A DNA stretch of 64,000 nt, taken from the NCBI GenBank assembly GCA_025201345.1, contig JAIXMG010000032.1, forward strand, positions 186,001 through 250,000, in the 5' to 3' direction. A program made the position numbers and the translations under genes. Under the pieces are notes generated by a model. That model was not told where the DNA came from and did no database searches. It saw nothing but the letters and a program-made list of their open reading frames with translations. The stretch comes from Thamnidium elegans (taxonomy: Eukaryota; Mucoromycota; Mucoromycetes; Mucorales; Mucoraceae). This document shows positions 16,748 to 59,635 of the stretch, piece by piece. The stretch's first letter is position 1. Each line of letters opens with the position of its first letter.

Positions 16748-17086
16748 ATGTACATCTACACACTCTCTTTAGTGTTTTTCGTTTCTATTCTAGTCTATTT
16801 TACTTCTGCGAAGGATTTCGATAAAAAAAGTTGGGATGGTAATACTAATCAAAGTATTGAGAAGCAAAATACTCATCGTAACGCTTAAAAAAAGAGAGAT
16901 ATAAGAAACAGACTTTCATCACATAATTATGAAATTTTACTACGCCAATATTACTCTTCTGGTGGCTACTATAGCGGTGGTAGCTACTATCCTAATGGTG
17001 GTGGTGGTGGTAATGGTAGTGGCTACTATAATCGTGATAGCTACAATAATGGTGCTGGGGTTGGTTCTGGATTCCGTGGTATATAG
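16748..17086 (+). pseudogene. Broken paralogue of the silk-like gene (in-frame stop)
   Basis: ATG 16748 starts MYIYTLSLVFFVSILVYFTS, nearly the same signal peptide as the intact gene at 18253. The frame reaches NTHRNA and hits TAA at 16886-16888, where the intact copy reads MHRNFYRKRERRKRLSS. Beyond the stop the same frame continues KKRDIRNRLSS, then Gly/Tyr/Ser-rich text (SSGGYYSGGSYY, PNGGGGGNGSGYY) to TAG at 17084-17086. The repeat region is GGYY-type rather than GAGAGS-type. I see no intron that would remove the stop. A short 46-residue secreted peptide from the upstream part cannot be excluded. Confidence 0.65.
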
Positions 17087-17494
17087 TGACGACGAGGTTT
17101 GAGGTTTCTGAAAAAAATGCATTGTGAAAATCGATATCTTGAATTACTTTTATAGTTATCTCTGCATAATTTTAGATTTTAATAAGTTACGACTATAATG
17201 AAGATCTATTGTTTATACTAGAACATCCTCTCGCTCTATATAATAGATATATTTTTTTAGTATTTTAAACTTATAAAGACACGTTAACTGTTTGATGGTT
17301 TGCTAAATATCATAACTACAGTTGTGATATTTAATTATATACAGTGGGTTGGGAGATAAACAAAATTTATTTAACACGATGTAGGGGTACTCTTTTTTTT
17401 TTTTTAAAAAAAAAAAAAAAAACGCTCCCTCTCGAATAACAAGAACATTTTCTCTTTCAATATTTAATAAAAAAAAGAAATGCGCATATACCCA

Positions 17495-17770
17495 CCTGTT
17501 TTGTAGACTACCTTTTATGATCTATGTACTCTCAAAAAGGTAAGACATGTTGCAGTTCTTCAAGTCGTTATTTGTTTTTTAAATATATATACAAAAAACA
17601 AAGTACAGATGCACATACTTTTTCTCTTTTTCAATTCAATACTATTTTTTTTTAAAAAAAACTAGGTCTATGCACTCTCTTTCACGGATTTTGATAGTAT
17701 CATGGCCACTTTGGCTTCAATAAAGAAAGATTTTTGGCTCATAACCTTCAAGGTATCAATAACCAAGATA
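17495..17770 (+). pseudogene. Relic second copy of the silk-like gene's promoter and 5' coding end
   Basis: The stretch 17495-17640 matches the promoters of the flanking copies. The stretch 17668-17765 aligns with the first 110 bases of the 18253 gene: TCTATGCACTCTCTTT, then GATAGTATCATGGCCACT, AATAAAGAAAG and TCAAGGTATCAATAA, with indels and stops in all frames. No Gly-rich part remains. It is followed at once by a 59 bp inverted-repeat element. Confidence 0.6.
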
Positions 17771-17829
17771 CAGTGGTGTTCTATTTAGGAGTACAAAACC
17801 CCGGGTACCATAAAATCGAGCGACTACTG
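17771..17829. mobile_element. 59 bp inverted-repeat element flanked by TA (deletion derivative)
   Basis: Begins CAGTGGTGTTCTATTTAGGA and ends AATCGAGCGACTACTG, a decayed version of the ends of the 173 bp element at 17865. TA lies immediately on both sides (17769-17770 and 17830-17831), as expected for a TA target-site duplication. Confidence 0.6.
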
Positions 17830-17864
17830 TAAGTTTTGAGATAAACTCAGGATTTAATGATATA

Positions 17865-18037
17865 CAGTAGCGGCTCTATTTAAGGGTGGCCAAAATTCTC
17901 AGAAAATCCACCCTTAAATCGATTATTAGCGATAATAGTGGTGTTAAAGCGGGGGACGGAAGAAGGTGTCCTGGAGAAATCCACCCTTAAATAGAGCCTA
18001 CTCTTAAATCGAACACCCTTAAATAGAGCCGCTACTG
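17865..18037. mobile_element. 173 bp MITE, TA target site (Tc1/mariner-pogo type ends)
   Basis: Terminal inverted repeats CAGTAGCGGCTCTATTTAAG and its complement (CTTAAATAGAGCCGCTACTG) are perfect for at least 20 bases, with TA on both flanks. The interior carries further copies of the ACCCTTAAAT motif and no ORF. A second copy at 30352-30523 is clearly the same family. TA duplication and CAG-starting ends point to the Tc1/mariner/pogo superfamily; this assignment is inference because no transposase is identified. Confidence 0.85.
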
Positions 18038-18252
18038 TAGTAGATAATGTAGTTAATGCGAGAAAATTATTTAGTAGATTATAGGGGTACTTTATGCGCC
18101 TGTTTATAGACTACCTTTCATGGTATACTATTAAAAATGTAATTCGTGTTTCAACTCATCCAGCTGTTATTTTTTTTTGAAAAAATATAAATACGCACAC
18201 ACACACACACACACTCCTTTTCAATACTAATCTATTCTTAACAGTAAAGAAA

Positions 18253-19437
18253 ATGTATATCTATACACTATCTTTAGTAGCTATTGCTAGTATTACGGTC
18301 ACTGTCGCTTCCACAAACAGTTTCAATAAAGAAAGTAGGGCGATTGATATTTATCAAGGTATCGATAATGAAGGCATGCATCGTAACTTTTACAGAAAGA
18401 GAGAAAGACGAAAGAGACTTTCATCGCGCCAAATTCGTCCTTTAGCTCCTGGTAGCAAGGGTAGTGGTGCTGGCGATAGTGATGGCAGTGGTTTCGGCTA
18501 CGGTGCTGGAAGTGGTTACAGCGAGGGTGCTGTTTACGGCGCTGGTGCTGGTGCTGGCAGTGGTGCTGGTTTTGGTGCTGGTTTTGGTACTGGTGCAGGA
18601 AGTGGTGCTGGTTTTGGTTACGGCGCTGGTGCTGGTGCTGGCAGTGGTGCTGGTGCTGGTTACGGCGCTGGTGCTGGTGCAGGTTATGGCGCTGGTGCTG
18701 GTGCTGGCAGTGGTGCTGGTGCTGGCAGTGGTGCTGGTGCAGGAAGTGGGGCTGGTTTTGGTTACGGCGCTGGTGCTGGTGCTGGTTACGGCGCTGGTGC
18801 AGGTGCAGGTTATGGCGCTGGTGCTGGTGCTGGCAGTGGTGCTGGTGCTGGCAGTGGTGCTGGTGCAGGAAGTGGGGCTGGTTTTGGTTACGGCGCTGGT
18901 GCTGGTGCTGGTTACGGCGCTGGTGCTGGTGCTGGTTACGGCGCTGGTGCAGGTGCAGGTTATGGCGCTGGTGCTGGTGCTGGCAGTGGTGCTGGTGCTG
19001 GCAGTGGTGCTGGTGCAGGAAGTGGTGCAGGTTTTGGTGCTGGCAGTGGTGCTGGTGCAGGAAGTGGGGCTGGTTTTGGTTACGGCGCTGGTGCTGGTGC
19101 TGGTTACGGCGCTGGTGCTGGTGCTGGCAGTGGTGCTGGTGCAGGTGCTGGCAGTGGTGCAGGTGCAGGAAGTGGTGCTGGTTTTGGTGCTGGTTTTGGT
19201 ACTGGTGCAGGAAGTGGTGCTGGTTTTGGTTACGGCGCTGGTGCTGGTGCTGGCAGTGGTGCTGGTGCTGGTTACGGCGCTGGTGCTGGTGCTGGCGAGG
19301 GTGCTGGAGCTAGCGGTGGTGCTGGTGCTGGAGGTGCTTACGACATTGTTTATGGCGTTATAGGGGATACTCCCCTATCAGCTGCCGTTAGTGATATCAT
19401 ACGTAGTCTTGAGACAGCCACTGAAGATATAATTTGA
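18253..19437 (+). CDS. Secreted silk-fibroin-like Gly/Ala repeat protein
   Basis: A single-exon 394-residue protein. Residues 1-20 (MYIYTLSLVAIASITVTVAS) are a signal peptide. A short polar propeptide follows, with dibasic Kex2-type sites in FYRKRERRKRLSS (about 50-60). Residues about 72-355 are nearly pure Gly, Ala, Ser, Tyr and Phe arranged as GAGAGS, GAGAGY and GAGFGYGAGAGAGYG modules. The C-terminal 35 residues are non-repetitive (YDIVYGVIGDTPLSAAVSD). The GAGAGS/GAGAGY grammar is that of crystalline silk fibroin, so beta-sheet fibre or wall-coating function is inferred; no homologous domain supports descent from insect silk. DNA of the repeat modules is nearly identical between blocks, indicating recent expansion. 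It sits downstream of two decayed paralogues sharing its promoter. Confidence 0.85.
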   Translation: MYIYTLSLVAIASITVTVASTNSFNKESRAIDIYQGIDNEGMHRNFYRKRERRKRLSSRQIRPLAPGSKGSGAGDSDGSGFGYGAGSGYSEGAVYGAGAGAGSGAGFGAGFGTGAGSGAGFGYGAGAGAGSGAGAGYGAGAGAGYGAGAGAGSGAGAGSGAGAGSGAGFGYGAGAGAGYGAGAGAGYGAGAGAGSGAGAGSGAGAGSGAGFGYGAGAGAGYGAGAGAGYGAGAGAGYGAGAGAGSGAGAGSGAGAGSGAGFGAGSGAGAGSGAGFGYGAGAGAGYGAGAGAGSGAGAGAGSGAGAGSGAGFGAGFGTGAGSGAGFGYGAGAGAGSGAGAGYGAGAGAGEGAGASGGAGAGGAYDIVYGVIGDTPLSAAVSDIIRSLETATEDII

Positions 19438-30135: not shown

Positions 30136-30351
30136 TACATCCTTCATATTCTTTTCTTTCTTCATTTTTTTAAAAAAGTATTTTCTTATCTGCCAAGTTT
30201 ATTTGACAGTTAAAAAATAAAAACATGTAATTTTCGCTATCAAAAAGTCTTTGTTACTGTCGGTATGAATCCATTTGTATTATTTGCTCTAAATTCCCGC
30301 TATAGATAAGAGTAAACCTGAATTAGTATATCGTTTAATAGGTTACTGTTA

Positions 30352-30523
30352 CAATAGCGGCTCTATTTAAGGGCGGCCGAAATTCTCAGGAAATCACCCT
30401 TAAATCGATTATTAGCGTTAATATTGGTGTTAAAGCGAGGGACGGAAGAGGATGTCCTAGAGAAATCCACTCTTAAATAGAGCCTACCCTTAAATCGAAC
30501 ACCCTTAAATAGAGCCGCTACTG
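30352..30523. mobile_element. 172 bp MITE, second intact copy
   Basis: Starts CAATAGCGGCTCTATTTAAG and ends AAATAGAGCCGCTACTG, flanked by TA on each side. The interior matches the 17865 copy through CTTAAATCGATTATTAGCG and GTTAAAGCGAGGGACGGAAG with scattered differences. It lies between the nucleoporin 3' end and the F-box gene. Confidence 0.85.
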
Positions 30524-30721
30524 TAACTACCGTATCTGCTATTCTATTTCATATAAAAGATTATTCATTGGCATTGTTTATCAAATACTTTTTGTTTATC
30601 CGGTTTGATAGGACGAAAAAGGAAATGATTGACTTTTAATAGATGACCTGGCATAATATTAAAAACATTTGCTCCTTTTTTCCCTTTTTTTTTTTCTCTC
30701 GCTTTTATATTATTAACCAAT

Positions 30722-46386: not shown

Positions 46387-48045
46387 ATGCGTCCGCCATT
46401 CCCTCATGGTATTAATCCTAACTTTAAAATCAATGAAACAGAGGCTAAAAAGCATAAGCTATATAAATCAATTATTGGTATACCTGTGTCAAAATGGAGT
46501 TCAACTTCTGAACTGGTTAAAAACGCGTTAGATAAAAATCCTAAAAGTGACGAAAAGACCTACGATAAGTTCAAAGCTGCTTTTAAGACTATTAGCAAGC
46601 AATTTATTCAGCAACCTGCCTTGGTTCGTTTTACAAAACTTTTGGTTGAATATATGAATTTGGAGACCACCAGGAATAAATATAATGATGACATTGAAGA
46701 CGCTGTTTTAGACAGCATGCTCGCAATAGAAGAAAAAAGGTCTAGAAAAAGAATCAAAATCGCGCAAACTCAAAATCTCAACAAGGAGCTTTCTGCCGAA
46801 ATCGGTTGCTCTTCGACAGTAGCTGAGGAAGATGAAAATGATACTGTTGCTGATGATTCGAGCAATATCACTGGGGAAGCGGAAGACGAGACAGACTACA
46901 TACAAAAAAAAATCTATGAAGACGCAGAGAAACTTCATGGTAGATATAAAGAGAGTGATGATTTGACTCCTGTCGAAAGGAAACGTATGTGCGCCGGTCT
47001 TTCTGGGATGCTTGATATCAGTGATAGCTCATACCATAGCCAGAGATTTCTGTTTAGCACCAGTAAATGGGAGAATGTAAATGAATATTACGCTCGATTT
47101 AGACAGTCATTTATTCACACAAAACTTGATTCAAATCTTGATTCCTTATATGAAATATGGGACACTATTTACAAGACGCTTACAACGGACCACAACTTCT
47201 TTCAAGCCCGAAAAACCTTCAATCGCCTCTCTAGTGAAAACGATATTAATGAATACACTTTTAAACAACTACAAATAATTGATTATTTTCTCGACACCTT
47301 TGACAATAAGCAATTTATTCTGAATCCTAAAGATCTGATGAAATTAACGGAACGAGACTACGAATCACAGATCTGGGTTCCTCTCTTCACCAAATTATTC
47401 AACATAAAAAAAATCTTTCTAGTCCGAATCAAGGCAGGTGAATCAGTGCCTGAAGAATCAACAAAAAAGAAAGCCGAACAGTATGGAACCGATAAGAATG
47501 TTATTGGATTTAAAGTCGACTTAAGGCTGATTCACGACCATAAGAAGTTAGAAATAGATTTGGCAAGCACTGAAGTATCTCTTCCGTGCGCTGATGAAGT
47601 CAAATTGTGTCATGATGAATCCAAGTTACTAAGAGAATCCATGATTAATACAGAAACGATACATCACCTTATAAAAAGCGAAGATTATATATATACCTGG
47701 ACTATTAGAATTAGTGGTTTGACTGCTGTCTTCTCAAAAGTTCTTTATGATGACGAACACAAGATATATGTCAACATTTATCAATTCACATTTCATTTTC
47801 CTACCTGTATCAGTGAGCTTGAAGATTTAAAAGACAATCTGGAATTGTTGTTCAAATTTAAAGAAGATACCGAGCGAATTGCAAACAAAGTTCAAAAAGC
47901 ATTGAAACATACCGAACGTCAAAATTATCGTTCTGAAGACTTTTCCCCTGAAAGGAAGGTCGCTCCTGAACCATCGATATATTTTACTCCGCCTAGAAAC
48001 GAAGCACGCCGCTCAGTTCTGCCATTTAAAGGTAAAGCTCTTTGA
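46387..48045 (+). CDS. Unrecognised 552-residue protein inside the TIR element
   Basis: A single long exon, ATG 46387 to TGA 48043-48045, without introns, unlike its many-exon neighbours. Residues 130-180 are acidic (EEDENDTVADDSS). The C-terminal half has folded-protein character: YESQIWVPLFTKLFNIKKIF, IKAGESVPEESTKKKAEQYG, IGFKVDLRLIHDHKKLEIDL, ASTEVSLPCADEVK, DESKLLRESMINTETIHHL. The order E...D-L-R...E-x-S...K is reminiscent of PD-(D/E)XK nuclease-like proteins, but I cannot establish this. The end (SIYFTPPRNEARRS) is Pro/Arg-rich. Intron-less structure and position within inverted repeats suggest a mobile-element gene. A lineage-specific cellular gene is the alternative. Confidence 0.75.
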   Translation: MRPPFPHGINPNFKINETEAKKHKLYKSIIGIPVSKWSSTSELVKNALDKNPKSDEKTYDKFKAAFKTISKQFIQQPALVRFTKLLVEYMNLETTRNKYNDDIEDAVLDSMLAIEEKRSRKRIKIAQTQNLNKELSAEIGCSSTVAEEDENDTVADDSSNITGEAEDETDYIQKKIYEDAEKLHGRYKESDDLTPVERKRMCAGLSGMLDISDSSYHSQRFLFSTSKWENVNEYYARFRQSFIHTKLDSNLDSLYEIWDTIYKTLTTDHNFFQARKTFNRLSSENDINEYTFKQLQIIDYFLDTFDNKQFILNPKDLMKLTERDYESQIWVPLFTKLFNIKKIFLVRIKAGESVPEESTKKKAEQYGTDKNVIGFKVDLRLIHDHKKLEIDLASTEVSLPCADEVKLCHDESKLLRESMINTETIHHLIKSEDYIYTWTIRISGLTAVFSKVLYDDEHKIYVNIYQFTFHFPTCISELEDLKDNLELLFKFKEDTERIANKVQKALKHTERQNYRSEDFSPERKVAPEPSIYFTPPRNEARRSVLPFKGKAL

Positions 48046-48292: not shown

Positions 48293-49190
48293 GTATATAT
48301 CGCGCAAGTGCTTAGAATAAAATCACTTGGTATAACCGTGACCACACACTGACCAATTGCTTAGACATCGATTCGACTGTAACATCGAAAAGATGTTGTG
48401 GTTGTGCCTAAGTAGTTCAATGTGGTGTTTGTACGGATCCCTAGATTTAATATAGCCACGGAACATAATCTATTACAGAAATTCAAAAAAAAAAAAAAAA
48501 AAAAAAGGACTCGCCAAATATGTTAGTAAAGCTAAGATCAAAATATTGTAATGAATGAACGAAATTACCTTATTTTGAACTTCATCATGTCAATTAAAGG
48601 CTATTGTAAAATCCGGATTATATTCAGAGAACCACTACTCCATACCGCACAAGATTGATAGTATATATCGCGCAAGTGCTTAGAATAAAATCACTTGGTA
48701 TAACCGTGACCACACACTGACCAATTGCTTAGACATCGATTCGACTGTAACATCGAAAAGATGTTGTGGTTGTGCCTAAGTAGTTCAATGTGGTGTTTGT
48801 ACGGATCCCTAGATTTAATATAGCCACGGAACATAATCTATTACAGAAATTCAAAAAAAAAAAAAAAAAAAAAAGGACTCGCCAAATATGTTAGTAAAGC
48901 TAAGATCAAAATATTGTAATGAATGAACGAAATTACCTTATTTTGAACTTCATCATGTCAATTAAAGGCTATTGTAAAATCCGGATTATATTCAGAGAAC
49001 CACTACTCCATACCGCACAAGATTGATAGTATATATCGCGCAAGTGCTTAGAATAAAATCACTTGGTATAACCGTGACCACACACTGACCAATTGCTTAG
49101 ACATCGATTCGACTGTAACATCGAAAAGATGTTGTGGTTGTGCCTAAGTAGTTCAATGTGGTGTTTGTACGGATCCCTAGATTTAACATA
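48293..49190. repeat. Tandem repeat, 368 bp unit, about 2.4 copies
   Basis: Units start at GTATATATCGCGCAAGTGC near 48293, 48661 and 49029; the spacing is 368 bp both times. Units 1 and 2 appear identical including an A run of about 22; unit 3 stops matching at ATTTAACATAGCCA near 49180. Each unit holds CAAGTG...CACTTG and a CCGTGACCACAC...GTGGTGTTTGTACGG pairing that could form an imperfect hairpin. No ORF. Confidence 0.9.
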
Positions 49191-49328
49191 GCCAAGAAAT
49201 GTACGCCAATTACAGTCTATTTTAGATTAAAAGCAAAAGCGTCTAATTTGAACTTAATAGAATAAAATTTTTGTAATCCTCCTAATTTTTATTTTGATTG
49301 GCAGGTCACGAATCTGAATACTAAGTTC

Positions 49329-54523: not shown

Positions 54524-55054
54524 AATTTATACCAAATAGATCTTGCATGGCATACTCACATGCTCCACCATAGAAATTATCATACAATGTGCATATCACT
54601 AATTGGAAAAATGATTAATCATGATGATGCTATCCCTGAAGATGATTTAGCCAGCTATGTGAAAATAACAGATATGGCTTGGGAGGCTCGAAATAAAAGA
54701 CTTAAGGAGGCACGTAAGCCTCCACCTTTACCTTTGCATGGCCCTACTTCTATTGAAGAAGAGAATAAGGCGAACAAAGAGACGAAGAAGATCGGCTTTA
54801 GAAATAAGATCAAATCTTTTATAGGCAAAACCGATGGTTCGGAAGCCAAACCCCGAAACAGACCAATTCCAAAGAGCCGAGTTTCTGACGAACCGTTCAT
54901 GTCTGGACCTAGATACATTAAAGGGAGCTATGAGTGCCCTCCACAATACACGCTAAATGAAGAAACTTCTGTAGTTGAAATTAACAACGATTCCAACTAT
55001 GAACCCGAAAAAGCCAGTTTCCATGATAAAAGTAATTGCATCTATATCTGCAAA

Positions 55055-55086
<32 letters not shown>

Positions 55087-56212
55087 TAACTTATCAAACC
55101 GAAATGTTAGGAGCTATTCGAGAGTTTATTGATTTAAATAACTCGGATGAAACTATGGACGCTACTTTTAGCAATGTTAAAAATTCGGTATATGGATTTA
55201 TTGGGTAAATAAAAAATAAAATAAAAAAATAGTGTTATTAACTTTGCGCTTTTAATTAATTATTATAAAAAGGACAAGCACTTGCGGAAGTAAGTAATAA
55301 AACATATTGGTAATATAGTAAATTTAACAATTGCAAATAGATACTGAAATTTTGAATCAATGGACTACCGAAACGTAAGCTATATTTTCTATATATCTCC
55401 TTTATTCTTAACTAAAATATTTTATATCAAATAGGGATGAAAGCAATAGTAAATATGTATATTTTTCCAATGCAGATATCATAGATCCTAACAATATATA
55501 TATATAGATGCACAGATAGTTACGAATAGTGTTTCCCCTAATCATTCAAGTTATACAAAAGGTACGTTCTATAAATACAAAGTCTTATTTACCATAATAA
55601 CCATAAATATAAATATATAAATAGTGTTTAAGACTAGTAAAGTATAAATATCATATGATATATTATAAAACGAATTTTAAAACAAAATACTGTTTTCTAT
55701 TTTTAGGAGGCAACAAAAGTACATTTGTGACCAAACGCAAGGTGTACGAAAAAGTTCGTCGTAAGTACATGTCTTCTCACAATATCGTAAGAGTTAAAAA
55801 ATGTAGCCATGACAAATCTTTCGATTGGCCCGAGATTATGTCTGTATGGATTAAAGCAGCCGAACTGATCAAAGAACTCACAACTTCTTCCTCTGCATGT
55901 GGGGGCTGGGGAAATTGTCAACAGAGCGGTGGTGATTCATTTGGTCTGACTTCTGGATGTAGTGGTGGTGGAGCATATGGTGCCTGCGGCAGCGGAGGAG
56001 TTGTTGGAGTATGCGGTGGTGGTGGAGGAGGATCATCCGTTTGTGGGGGAGGAGGGTCTTCCGCTTGTGGTGGCGGCTCATCCGCTTGTGGTGGAGGAGG
56101 AGGAGGAGGTGGTGGTGGAGGATCTTCCGCTTGTGGAGGAGGTGGAGGCGGCGGAGGTGGAGGAGGCGGAGGATCTTCTGGATGCGGAGGAGGTGGAGGA
56201 GGTGGCTGTTAA
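53077..56212 (+). CDS. GRDP-like (DUF1399) protein with Gly/Cys-rich tail, copy A
   Basis: About a dozen or more exons from ATG 53077 to TAA 56210-56212. GRDP hallmarks: NCWYYLSLLERFVDI, DVAFFWQAHLLSP, EYTEWRTDHTIALHCCCCYN, STYLCTPYRGSSIDLIQAVA and DLAWHTHMLHHRNYH. Further on are VYGFIG, a 17-nt micro-exon encoding TSTCG, then FDWPEIMSVWIKAA. The tail is a low-complexity run of GGGGG, SSACGGG and SSGCGGG. In plants GRDPs act in development and stress; in fungi the role is unknown. An (AAT)n run (55058-55083) falls inside an intron, although the frame reads through it as poly-Asn. Exon count is approximate; phases agree at all junctions I checked. Confidence 0.82.
53339..53367. repeat. (TA)n microsatellite in the first GRDP intron
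   Basis: Alternating TA of about 28 bases directly after the exon-1 donor region. Confidence 0.75.
54491..54520. repeat. Poly-A run of about 30 bases in a GRDP intron
   Basis: An uninterrupted A run between the exon ending TYEIG and the acceptor before DLAWHTHML. Confidence 0.75.
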
Positions 56213-56555: not shown

Positions 56556-59500
56556 ATGTATTTCTATAATGACCCACCAGTTGAATTATCCGAAGATGAA
56601 TTTCCTAGAATAAGCGACGTTGTTACTGTTGCCAATTGTTGGTATTATCTATCTTTATTAGAAAGATTTGTTGATATTACAAGTTCGATGTCAGAAAAAG
56701 TTTTAAAGATGTATCTTGTCAGGGCCGAGTATCGGTATTTTCAATGGACTTCTAATAAAACTCCTCGTAAAGCTAAATATACTATACCTCCACTTGGTAA
56801 GAAGTGTTACGTTTTTTTTTTTACTTGATTTCTAAAATATATCATATAAAGACGTTGCATTTTTCTGGCAGGCTCATATGTTGAGCCCTTTTCGATTTCG
56901 AGAGGATACATTAAGGATTCCACCTTTTATGTCCGACCAAATACCTCTCAAAAAAATTGTAAGGTTTTAGATGAATACTTTATTTGGTAATTACACGTGT
57001 TTTTTTTAAAAAAAATGTTAACGTTCTAGCACGACCTTCAAAAAAATCCGGACAAAAAAGTTTTATCAGAGTGGAAAAAAGTCATGTATGATGAACATTA
57101 TGAGTTGACCGAAAAAGTTATTTTGCAAGATAAAGGGTTTGCTTCTATTCAATGTATCGTTTGTAATATAACTATGGAAATAACATGGTATAAAAGCAAA
57201 ATCAAGTTTATAGAATAAAGCATTGACAGTCTTTCTCTCCCTCCCTCTCCCTCTCTTAAAAATAAATAGGACAGAGTATACAGACTGGAGAACAGATCAT
57301 CGGATTGCTTTACAGTGCCACTGTTGTGATACCATGTTTACAATAAAACATGCAGGAAAAGCAAATTTTCTTGCGGACAATGCCAAAGTTCACACTACTG
57401 CGTAAGTACAAAAAAATATACAAGTAACAAAGTTCCCAGATCACTTATTCTGCTTAGAGGATTGCTCCTAGACGACAAAGGGTTTCGTATTACTTCTAAT
57501 GCTGAGAACAGACTTTTATTACCTCTTAAAGATATCAAGTCACTACCTTTTAACCAAGGCTTAGGGCCATTAGATGATCATATAACTGCAAAAATCAATA
57601 AACTTGGATTTAAAAATGGACCCACTAAAGCAAAGAAAAGTATACATTGTAAGACAAAACATTTTACCAGTTCTGATATTCTTGTATTATTTAGAACTTA
57701 TTAATGCAGTTCAAAGCACGTATCTATGTACACCTTACAGGGGGAGTTCAATTGATATGATACAGGCTGTAGCTAGACAATACAAATTTGCGGTAAAGGT
57801 AACCAAGGGAGTAAACTGGGATTCACCAGACGGTATTATCAAGGGTATAAGACACTATAGCGGATTCCTTGCTGTCATTCATGACAATCCATCAATTGTA
57901 GCAGTACCAACTTATGAGATAGGTAAAGTGTTATTATTTTAATAAAATTAGGTTAATATATATTTTTTTTTAAAAAAAAAATAGATCTTGCATGGCACAC
58001 ACATATGCTTCATGCTTCAAATTATCGTCGGTTCTGTAACCAATTTTTTTCCAGACTGATAAATCACGACGATACAATTCCTGAAGATAACTTAAAAAGT
58101 CATGTAGAAAAGACAGATTTGGCTTGGAAGCAGCGTGATACAAGGCGCATGATTTCTCAGTTACCTGCTCTTCCTCCATCTCCTACACCTTCCATTATCG
58201 AAAGCTCAGAAAAAAAAAAAGGTAAAAGCATCAAGAAAAAAATCGGAGCTTTGCTTTCTTTCAAGAAAAAAGGATATCCTAGTCCTTCTCCTCTTCCAGT
58301 TATATCGAATCCTTCTGTTGATGTCGCTCCAGTTGGAGTTACTGCAAAGGACATATATTGCGACGAGAAGTTATTGTTTGGTAAAAGTTTTGTTGCAGGT
58401 ACCTACAAAGAGGTGCCGTCACACCAACCAATTTCTGAAGACCCTTCTGAGAATCTAAAAGAAGAAACTGACGAGCTATCTGAGAACCAAGTAAACCAAC
58501 AGCAAGACGATTACGAAGACCTCATTTACGACAAGGATAATATCAGCTTTCATGATAAGAGTATATATTTTATAGCTTACAAAAAAAAAATACATTGTCT
58601 CACCTATTTGAATGACAGGAGATATAAAGGATTTTATAAAATTTAAAAACTCGGATAAAATGATGGATAAAAAATTCAAAGATGCCAAAGTATCTGTTTA
58701 TGGTTTTATTGGGTATTCAAATACATCTCTTACATTATCCGATTACAATCGATTAACCATATATTCAATTTATTTAGAACTAGTAATTGTGGAAGTAAGC
58801 GCATTAAAGCACATTTCTCCCAAAATATGATAATGTACTGACGCGCTTGATGACCTATTTTAGATACATCTTATTTAGACCAATGGGATAAAAAAAGGTA
58901 ATATGAAACGCAAGTAAACGAGAGGGAGGGTTTTTTTTTCTAACCAATTTTTAATACCTAGTATAATTATCATTATTATCGATTATTGAGCACTAGTTGA
59001 CTTGTAATTATACAGGAAAAGACAAAATCAGAAAAGGCTCAAGCAAACCTCCATTTTCAACATACAAAAAAGGTAATCCATTTTCAATTGACATCAATTT
59101 ATATTTGAATAATCATAGTTTGTTTTTTTTTCTGCATGCTTTGCAGTGTTTCAAACTAGTAAGTGTTTTTTTTACGTGCAGGGATTTTAATAACCTTTTT
59201 TAAACACGATATAAAATTATAGCGGGACCTGCACCAGTGTTTACTCCACGAGGAATACAAAATGTTTCTATATTGCAAAAATCAAATCAAAAAGAATATG
59301 ATACTTACTACAAAGCTCAAAACACTCGATACAATCCAGCTGGTGATATTTTCGATTGGTATTATATCAGTAGAATATGGTTCGAGTCTACAGAGCACAC
59401 AGGTCCGCAAAATAATGACGATTGTAATCACAATGCAATGAAATCAAGTTGTGCTGGCATATCGTCCAATTGTGGTACCCATACGTCAACCTTATCTGGT

Positions 59501-59635
59501 GCGCATACCTCATCGTATTCTAGTAACTGTATTGCCGCAACTTCTAAGTATGAATCTTCTTCCAATGATAATGGATCCTCTTCTAACTGTGGAGGATCGT
59601 CCTCTAACTGTGGAGGAGGAAGTAGTAACTATTAG
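56556..59635 (+). CDS. GRDP-like (DUF1399) protein, copy B
   Basis: Tandem paralogue of copy A, 343 bp downstream and in the same orientation, ATG 56556 to TAG 59633-59635. It shares NCWYYLSLLERFVDI, DVAFFWQAHMLSPF, EYTDWRTDHRIALQC, STYLCTPYRGSSIDMIQAVA and DLAWHTHML with the same intron positions, including the 17-nt micro-exon (TSNCG). The linker after the second GRDP block differs (SIIESSEKKKGKSIKKKIGA) and is basic. The tail is Ser/Asn/Cys-rich (SSNCGGSSSNCGGGSSNY) rather than pure Gly/Cys. Both copies are expected to be expressed since frames and splice sites are intact. Confidence 0.82.

Follow-up and report, generated by a model that had tools for sequence, protein, structure and literature searches.

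A gene of the fungus Thamnidium elegans (Mucorales, Mucoraceae), situated within a 64,000-nucleotide window (the whole stretch of DNA analyzed here), combines a leader, dibasic sites, a silk-type repeat core and a C-terminal tail in one open reading frame, from which parts we infer every biochemical step proposed below. On balance, and to judge from these features, we favor the interpretation that its product is a functional, secreted silk-like surface protein, matured by a Kex2-type protease, which would form a coat or fiber and whose resemblance to animal silk would be convergent.

Architecture of the gene and its predicted product

The open reading frame occupies exactly the position originally predicted, and its features, given in window coordinates, are as follows.

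18186-18191, plus strand: TATAAA, at -67 from the ATG, within the upstream region shared with paralogues (alignment)
18253-19437, plus strand: silk-like open reading frame of 394 aa plus stop codon (19435-19437), without internal stop
18253-18312, plus strand: predicted signal peptide, residues 1-20 (hydropathy; conserved across eight aligned leaders)
18313-18417, plus strand: pro-region, residues 21-55, with RKR and RRKR sites, putatively of Kex2 type (invariant residues in aligned leaders)
18418-18465, plus strand: short linker opening the predicted mature protein, residues 56-71 (sequence)
18466-19335, plus strand: (Gly-X)n silk-fibroin-type core, residues 72-361 (290 aa), with a 126-nt higher-order repeat (TRF, residue counts)
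19336-19434, plus strand: C-terminal tail, residues 362-394 (33 aa) (sequence, hydrophobic moment, AlphaFold, relatives on contig C10)

The signal peptide claimed in the original prediction is borne out, as a secretion-type leader, by hydropathy and by conservation across the gene family described below. No other 19-residue stretch of the protein is as hydrophobic as residues 1 to 19 (mean Kyte-Doolittle value of 1.83), signal cleavage was placed by eye at about residue 20-21 according to the -3/-1 rule, and the highest 19-residue mean after residue 30 is 1.32, which speaks against the presence of a transmembrane segment. The dibasic processing sites that had been proposed are likewise present, RKR at residues 48 to 50 and RRKR at residues 52 to 55, and are conserved among the leaders. 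The 394-residue protein is devoid of cysteine, and its predicted mature part (339 aa) contains 1 Lys, 3 Arg, and 3 Pro, with no Lys or Arg within the repeat; it ends in ATEDII, with no long hydrophobic C-terminal stretch apparent by eye. A Pfam search of the protein returned no family at an E value of 0.001 and no recognized silk terminal domain. AlphaFold modeling from the single sequence yielded a mean pLDDT of 37 and no confident structure, an outcome which counts against a functional role.

Composition and coding evidence of the repeat core

The silk-fibroin-type repeat domain described in the original prediction was confirmed and extends over 290 residues, being composed of 49.3% Gly, 30.3% Ala, 8.3% Ser, 5.9% Tyr, and 3.8% Phe. 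Gly is present at 141 of 145 alternate positions, and the 145 intervening (X) positions are occupied by Ala (88), Ser (21), Tyr (17), Phe (11), and eight others. GAGAGS occurs 16 times, GAGAGY nine times, and GAGFGY five times; because seven of the nine GAGAGY words sit inside GAGAGAGY, the Tyr module is mainly an octapeptide. The 126-nt higher-order unit is present in 6.1 copies (TRF). When X residues were shuffled among the X positions (5,000 shuffles), GAGAG[SY] was encountered 13.9 times on average and at most 22 times, compared to 25 times in the core itself, an excess which is a matter of order and not of independent selection, since the units arose by duplication.

The main alternative, which we consider less likely, is that the core is an unselected repeat, i.e., a short Gly/Ala stretch within a decaying family which grew by slippage of 6-nt units (GGTGCT), its silk likeness being a by-product and its expression weak or nil. 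The overlapping +2 frame is likewise open, for 293 aa, as a 6-nt repeat would allow, and the open frame alone is therefore weak coding evidence. Relative to four other open reading frames of the window, the core displays a surplus of GGT (codon share of 0.69 versus 0.59) and GCT (0.83 versus 0.49), which is predicted by expansion of GGTGCT and which is compatible with a preference for these codons as well as with a recent expansion of such a unit. Against an unselected origin, the entire 394-codon frame is intact, leader and tail included, and the core Ser codon is nearly always AGT and the Tyr codon TAC or TAT, which are not single-step variants of GCT. Furthermore, among 66 distinct 21-nt contexts of the Gly slots, departures from the commonest base numbered 22 at the third codon position, 3 at the first, and 1 at the second (Fisher P values of 3.1e-5 against the first and 8.3e-7 against the second), a distribution such as constraint at the protein level would produce, with the reservation that duplicated units do not represent independent events.

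A genome-wide search for the pattern GAGAGXGAG produced 28 matches, 26 of which lie in the silk-like gene, with one each on contigs C15 and C64 (contigs are designated by C and a number throughout); the reversed-pattern control produced 7. The GA silk core is confined to one gene, a finding which counts against a functional silk and in favor of the unselected repeat. Other Gly/Ala-rich stretches of the genome are located at C17:364549 (E value, 1e-5) and C28:393551 (E value, 1.9e-4), and weaker ones, which contain stops, on C4, C29, C23, and C35.

C-terminal tail

The C terminus, which had been presented as a unique stretch of 35 residues, consists of 33 residues and seems not to be unique. 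A whole-genome search with the tail as the query matched only the tail itself; when searched against 15 fetched sequences, it aligned with a stretch at C10:528 kb (46% over 24 aa [E value, 0.019], and 72% over 47 bp at the DNA level [E value, 0.001]), and among the fetched loci a DNA match was also found at C10:572 kb (70% over 61 bp [E value, 1.4e-5]). Both of these stretches are situated beyond stops. On the basis of these alignments, the tail is probably related to the corresponding stretches of the two paralogous C10 loci. Loci L023, L017, L027, and L020 were considered as further tail relatives and rejected, as their blastn matches to the 3' end of the window fall after the gene, outside the tail.

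The last 22 residues of the tail are amphipathic when arranged as a helix, with a hydrophobic moment (mu_H) of 0.48 that was reached by 0.1% of 5,000 shuffles, and AlphaFold placed a low-confidence helix at residues 375 to 393. By analogy with the C-terminal domains of silks, the tail may have a role in assembly.

A leader family with unlike cores

The original prediction envisaged a silk-like plan of leader, pro-region, core, and tail, which is upheld by the present analysis; what it missed was the membership of the gene in a family of leader-sharing loci, one of which has a spidroin-like core. At least 21 such loci are distributed across seven contigs (C10, C12, C20, C26, C30, C34, and C45), a count pooled from queries of three members and from which the weak match C14:462931 (E value, 0.505) was left out as doubtful. 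The shared leader is described by the motif MxIYTL...SA..F.K...KR...KR(L/F)S, to which the silk-like gene conforms; K49, R50, R55, and S57 are invariant in all eight aligned leaders, and K49, R50, and R55 are nearly invariant in an alignment of ten. An ATG and an open leader are retained at nine of the 21 loci, one of which (C10:528 kb) is without the KR motif. The other 12 are broken or partial owing to stops, a lost start, a frameshift, or a partial leader (the status of C34 and of three C45 loci being taken from search tables alone), and this level of decay counts against a functional product and agrees with the unselected repeat described above. Contig C45 carries 12 of the 21 loci, most of which are decayed.

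A spidroin-like core is carried by the following paralogue outside the window.

C30:85077-85721 (in L017): spider-dragline-like paralogue, 215 aa (translated locus)

Its core is made up of poly-Ala runs of 14, 12, and 26 residues, each followed by GSSGAGGYGGYG (twice as GSSGAGGYGGYGSGSGAGSS), with a GS run thereafter. It holds pure GCT and GGTTCT runs, as unselected growth of simple repeats would produce, and its frame stops before the tail that is present in the sister locus C30:133152. A genome search with the poly-Ala/GGY core recovered its own gene only. The remaining cores are dissimilar to it and to one another, being Ala/Gly/Ser with a TAA in C30:133152, GGG-LPIVGG in C45:427378 (with a similar core in P0069, a protein from another assembly), Tyr/Asp/Gly in C10:572414 (with counterparts in P0071 of Helicostylum pulchrum and P0072 of Mucor flavus), Gly/Ser/Tyr in C20, and Gly/Tyr in the in-window copy, with none evident in C45:977162. 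It emerges from such comparisons that the gene belongs to a birth-and-death family in which the leaders are related and the cores unlike.

A protein search with ten aligned leaders identified nine proteins at an E value of ≤10 among 7,101 candidates, namely, four from T. elegans, one from H. pulchrum, one from M. flavus, one from a Paenibacillus metagenome-assembled genome (MAG) record, and two from other assemblies; the best of the T. elegans proteins displayed 100% identity over 97% of the first query sequence. The H. pulchrum and M. flavus members bear acidic Tyr/Asp repeats. As P0070 (63 aa) coincides, on visual comparison, with the final part of the leader gene C45:483733, the public Paenibacillus sp. 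MAG probably contains Thamnidium DNA. The Tyr/Asp member at C10:572 kb, with P0071 and P0072 as likely orthologues, may be the gene which is conserved best within the family.

The dN/dS values of the silk-like gene against ten other leaders (56 to 60 codons per pair) were 0.32, 0.33, 0.38, 0.42, 0.44, 0.60, 0.65, 0.66, 0.74, and 0.82, the last of these being obtained with the spidroin-like paralogue. Over all 55 pairs of 11 leaders, a set which includes broken leaders and whose pairs are not independent, the median was 0.51, with 52 values below 1 and 43 below 0.7. The highest values involved C10:528 kb (up to 1.07, and 0.87 with C10:572 kb), and recent pairs also scored highly (C30:133/C30:85, 1.03 at a dS of 0.05; in-window copy/C20, 0.85 at a dS of 0.15); such high values count against a functional role. 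Since the leader values are mostly below 1, past constraint is indicated, which seems to have been relaxed in copies that are recent or decayed. That all ten pairs with the silk-like gene fall below 1 argues against an unselected repeat, although the constraint is possibly ancestral, and constraint preceding decay would yield the same picture.

The sharing of the leader among unlike cores might alternatively be taken to mean that the leader is itself the product, in which case a pro-peptide between the signal and the KR site would be released as a small signaling or antimicrobial peptide and the variable C-terminal part would be a carrier; Kex2-released peptides are, in the sources concerned, reported to be widespread in fungi (PMC6339444, PMC7329392). 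The distribution of invariant residues across the eight leaders does not favor this scenario, in that residues 1 to 20 contain five and the KR sites, together with the positions just after them, four, compared to K26 alone in residues 21 to 47, and the silk-like gene seems to share its tail with two paralogues, which would be unexpected for a throw-away carrier. We therefore regard a leader-derived peptide as improbable.

Local tandem array and origin of the gene

Immediately upstream of the silk-like gene, the window contains the following elements.

16748-17086, plus strand: tandem paralogue (pseudogene) with leader and Gly/Tyr-rich core, in-frame TAA at 16886-16888 (leader search, alignment)
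17470-17790, plus strand: relic of a third copy, consisting of promoter and decayed leader and devoid of an ATG where the alignment would place one (blastn match of 66% over 225 nt, E value of 8e-18; alignment)
17863-18039, no strand assigned: MITE-like element whose terminal inverted repeats (26 nt) are perfect, separating the relic from the gene

The TAA of the first copy falls in its dibasic region, and this copy is counted among the 21 leader loci, to which the relic is additional. As both upstream copies are decayed, the silk-like gene constitutes the third and only intact member of a local tandem array. The sequence from the upstream region through the leader aligns in eight stretches (the three window copies and five from other contigs), and the shared promoter copies to which the original prediction referred are therefore real. 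A second MITE-like copy, with 2 mismatches in one arm, is located at positions 30350 to 30525 of the window.

Contamination with arthropod DNA, or acquisition of the gene from an arthropod, would be suggested by the resemblance of the repeat to silk and by nothing else, and we assign it a negligible probability. The two decayed copies, which lie less than 2 kb upstream and possess the same upstream region and leader, argue strongly against contamination, in agreement with the fungal origin put forward at the outset. Family loci are found on seven contigs, the window also encodes a Nup192 protein and an F-box protein (Pfam), relatives are present in T. elegans, H. pulchrum, and M. flavus, and no silk terminal domain was detected by Pfam, all of which is at odds with an arthropod source. 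The 40 CotH-matching segments detected in the genome are in keeping with a member of the Mucoromycota, with which CotH is associated.

Database and literature searches

A whole-protein search of a 5.8-billion-protein set, in which the 7,997 candidates sharing most words were scored, returned 64 matches at an E value of ≤0.001. These matches (including bacteria, fish testins, crayfish, and an Ophiocordyceps glucanase) were read as matches of composition and rejected as homologues; none of those with at least three GAGAG[SYFVA] words starts with the leader, as judged by comparison of the first 60 residues. A search with the leader only (residues 1 to 66) gave 17 candidates, none at an E value of ≤10. 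Across the whole-protein and leader searches, whose candidates were limited by length and shared words, no annotated protein and no orthologue of the silk-like gene was found, which counts against a functional interpretation and is consistent with an unselected repeat. A PDB sequence search produced 17 chains at an E value of ≤1, none of which is a silk by name and the best of which is Sperm-associated antigen 8 (E value, 1.1e-5). The original suggestion that the likeness to silk reflects convergence and not homology is in accordance with these compositional database matches, with the absence of a silk from the PDB search, and with the lack of a Pfam family at an E value of 0.001.

Among the literature matches listed, no fungal GAGAGS protein was encountered, which is weak evidence that none has been described. 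Similarly, fibroin grammar combined with a dibasic pre-pro leader that a spidroin-like paralogue also carries was not encountered for any fungus among the literature matches listed, in searches whose scope stopped short of most subscription papers and of preprints.

Hydrophobin Pfam models gave no match over the cutoff in the genome and one sub-threshold match (20.2 bits, with a stop), and control genomes gave none either, which deprives this negative outcome of weight. Under the terms searched, PMC3364958 contained no statement on Mucorales. It is conceivable that the leader family stands in for hydrophobins. Hydrophobins carry eight cysteines, whereas the silk-like protein is without any.

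Comparison with known silks and fungal repeat proteins

The major ampullate spidroins of spiders consist of poly-Ala runs alternating with GGY-type and GSG blocks, and the paralogue at C30:85077 resembles them in that its own poly-Ala runs (14, 12, and 26) alternate with GGYGGYG and GSG blocks; it differs in its length of 215 aa and in that its Ala runs are GCT/GCC codon runs. Pfam includes models of spidroin terminal domains, for which the silk-like window gene had no match at an E value of 0.001. The N-terminal domain of the silkworm fibroin heavy chain (FibH) has a solved structure, which was not among the PDB chains at an E value of ≤1, the leader of the fungal protein being instead homologous to those of its fungal paralogues. 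The fungal protein further differs from FibH in possessing a dibasic pro-region and no recognized terminal domains, and its Tyr words are mostly GAGAGAGY octapeptides, with Phe and not Val as the minor residue. The likeness to FibH resides in the alternating Gly, in the GAGAGS/GAGAGY blocks, and in a composition close to that given for Bombyx mori FibH (Gly, 46%; Ala, 30%; Ser, 12%; Tyr, 5.3%; Val, 1.8%), the Gly/Ala/Ser/Tyr values of the core being 49/30/8/6 compared to 46/30/12/5.3 (PMC8234240). FibH is described as a protein of ~350 kDa with a cysteine in its C-terminal domain that binds FibL (PMC11241164), and the 394-residue fungal protein is without such a cysteine.

In terms of gene behavior, the closest parallel is provided, within the same phylum, by the AGL proteins of Glomeromycotina, which are described as small families of secreted, poorly annotated proteins with fast-evolving low-complexity repeats, conserved signals, and diverged repeat regions, and which have been likened to spider silk and elastin (PMC8786786). 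As characterized there, AGLs are Pro/Gly rich, carry a C-terminal GPI signal, and in Rhizophagus have one intron by the endoplasmic reticulum (ER) signal; the same source reports no secreted AGL relatives in Mucoromycotina by BLASTn (PMC8786786). The silk-like protein, in contrast, has 3 Pro in its mature part, a dibasic pro-region, and one continuous frame.

In animals, secreted Gly-rich silk-like proteins (SLSPs) are reported to have arisen independently many times, and the SilkSlider rule for their recognition calls for at least 25% Gly in 80 aa, a SignalP signal peptide, and no TMHMM transmembrane segment (PMC4944945). Counted after residue 21, the fungal protein contains 41 Gly in 80 aa (51%), and it resembles SLSPs in coupling a secretion-type leader to a Gly-rich domain; that survey is metazoan, and its main text does not contain the stem "fung" (PMC4944945).

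Proteins of the KEP class (KEX2-processed repeat proteins) have Kex2 sites between repeats, and the silk-like protein does not. To our knowledge, there is no closer fungal functional analogue than Rep1 of Ustilago maydis. Rep1 is described as a Kex2-matured secreted repeat protein which forms surface fibrils on hyphae and has a role in aerial hyphae, and its amphipathic repeats of 34 to 55 aa are divided by Kex2 sites (PMC4617103), whereas the dibasic sites of the silk-like protein are found in the leader only. The silk-like protein is devoid of repeat features by which Rep1 and AGLs, respectively, are defined.

Proposed maturation and assembly

In the functional interpretation that we favor, the signal peptide would take the pre-pro-protein into the ER, following which a Kex2-like protease would cut after KR in the pro-region, thus releasing an alternating-Gly mature protein of ~339 aa for secretion. 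This protein is presumed to remain in solution up to its arrival at the wall or outer surface. There, the GAGAGS/GAGAGAGY blocks may stack as beta-sheets and the C-terminal amphipathic helix may help assembly into an insoluble coat, fiber, or glue. The family itself would amount to a cassette in which the shared leader is followed by low-complexity cores (GA, poly-Ala/GGY, GGG-LPIVGG, and Tyr/Asp) that were repeatedly expanded, and the silk grammar would, therefore, be convergent.

Such a function is suggested by the architecture and repeat of the protein, by the third-position variation of its Gly slots, by a Gly content above the SilkSlider threshold, by the size of the leader family (at least 21 loci) and its dN/dS values, by the upstream region and, probably, the tail shared with paralogues, by the occurrence of a second silk-type, spidroin-like core behind the leader of the family, by family members in H. 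pulchrum, M. flavus, and another assembly, and, by analogy, by the precedent that Rep1, as described, offers for Kex2-matured surface fibrils in a fungus (PMC4617103). Our preference for it is nonetheless tempered, and an unselected repeat is granted some weight, because neither an annotated protein nor an orthologue was found in the searches described above, broken or partial loci make up more than half of the relatives, and the growth of simple repeats can make silk-like words. A broader proposition, which we regard as rather doubtful, is that the leader family encodes a surface polymer of Thamnidium and close Mucorales in which silkworm-type (GAGAGS) and spider-type (poly-Ala/GGY) grammars arose by repeat expansion, and which would constitute a true fungal silk with a role on aerial structures like that of hydrophobins and repellents in Dikarya.

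Secreted Gly-rich silk-like proteins are already known in animals (PMC4944945); what is new here is the leader family and the spidroin-like sister. If the protein is expressed and assembled, a fungus would be the maker of a silk, and two of the grammars of animal silk would have arisen behind a single leader; the case would illustrate how silk sequence can evolve from simple-repeat growth behind a secretion leader. It would also supply silk genes that are naturally short and of eukaryotic microbial origin, as well as candidate surface proteins of the aerial structures of Mucorales. Even if the family is decaying, silk-like sequence that arose largely by mutation would serve as a null model for claims of silk-like proteins.

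Other features of the window

Two neighboring open reading frames of the window, at positions 54560 to 55132 and 58005 to 58646, are similar to each other, and the latter has a weak GRDP-like Pfam match (E value, 0.016) below the cutoff; the pair possibly represents a duplicated glycine-rich-domain protein. A Gly/Cys/Ser-rich open reading frame is located at positions 55655 to 56212, and a short tandem repeat at positions 59573 to 59617. A 368-bp unit, repeated 2.5 times at 99%, occupies positions 48293 to 49194, just 3' of a 552-aa open reading frame (positions 46387 to 48045) without a Pfam family.
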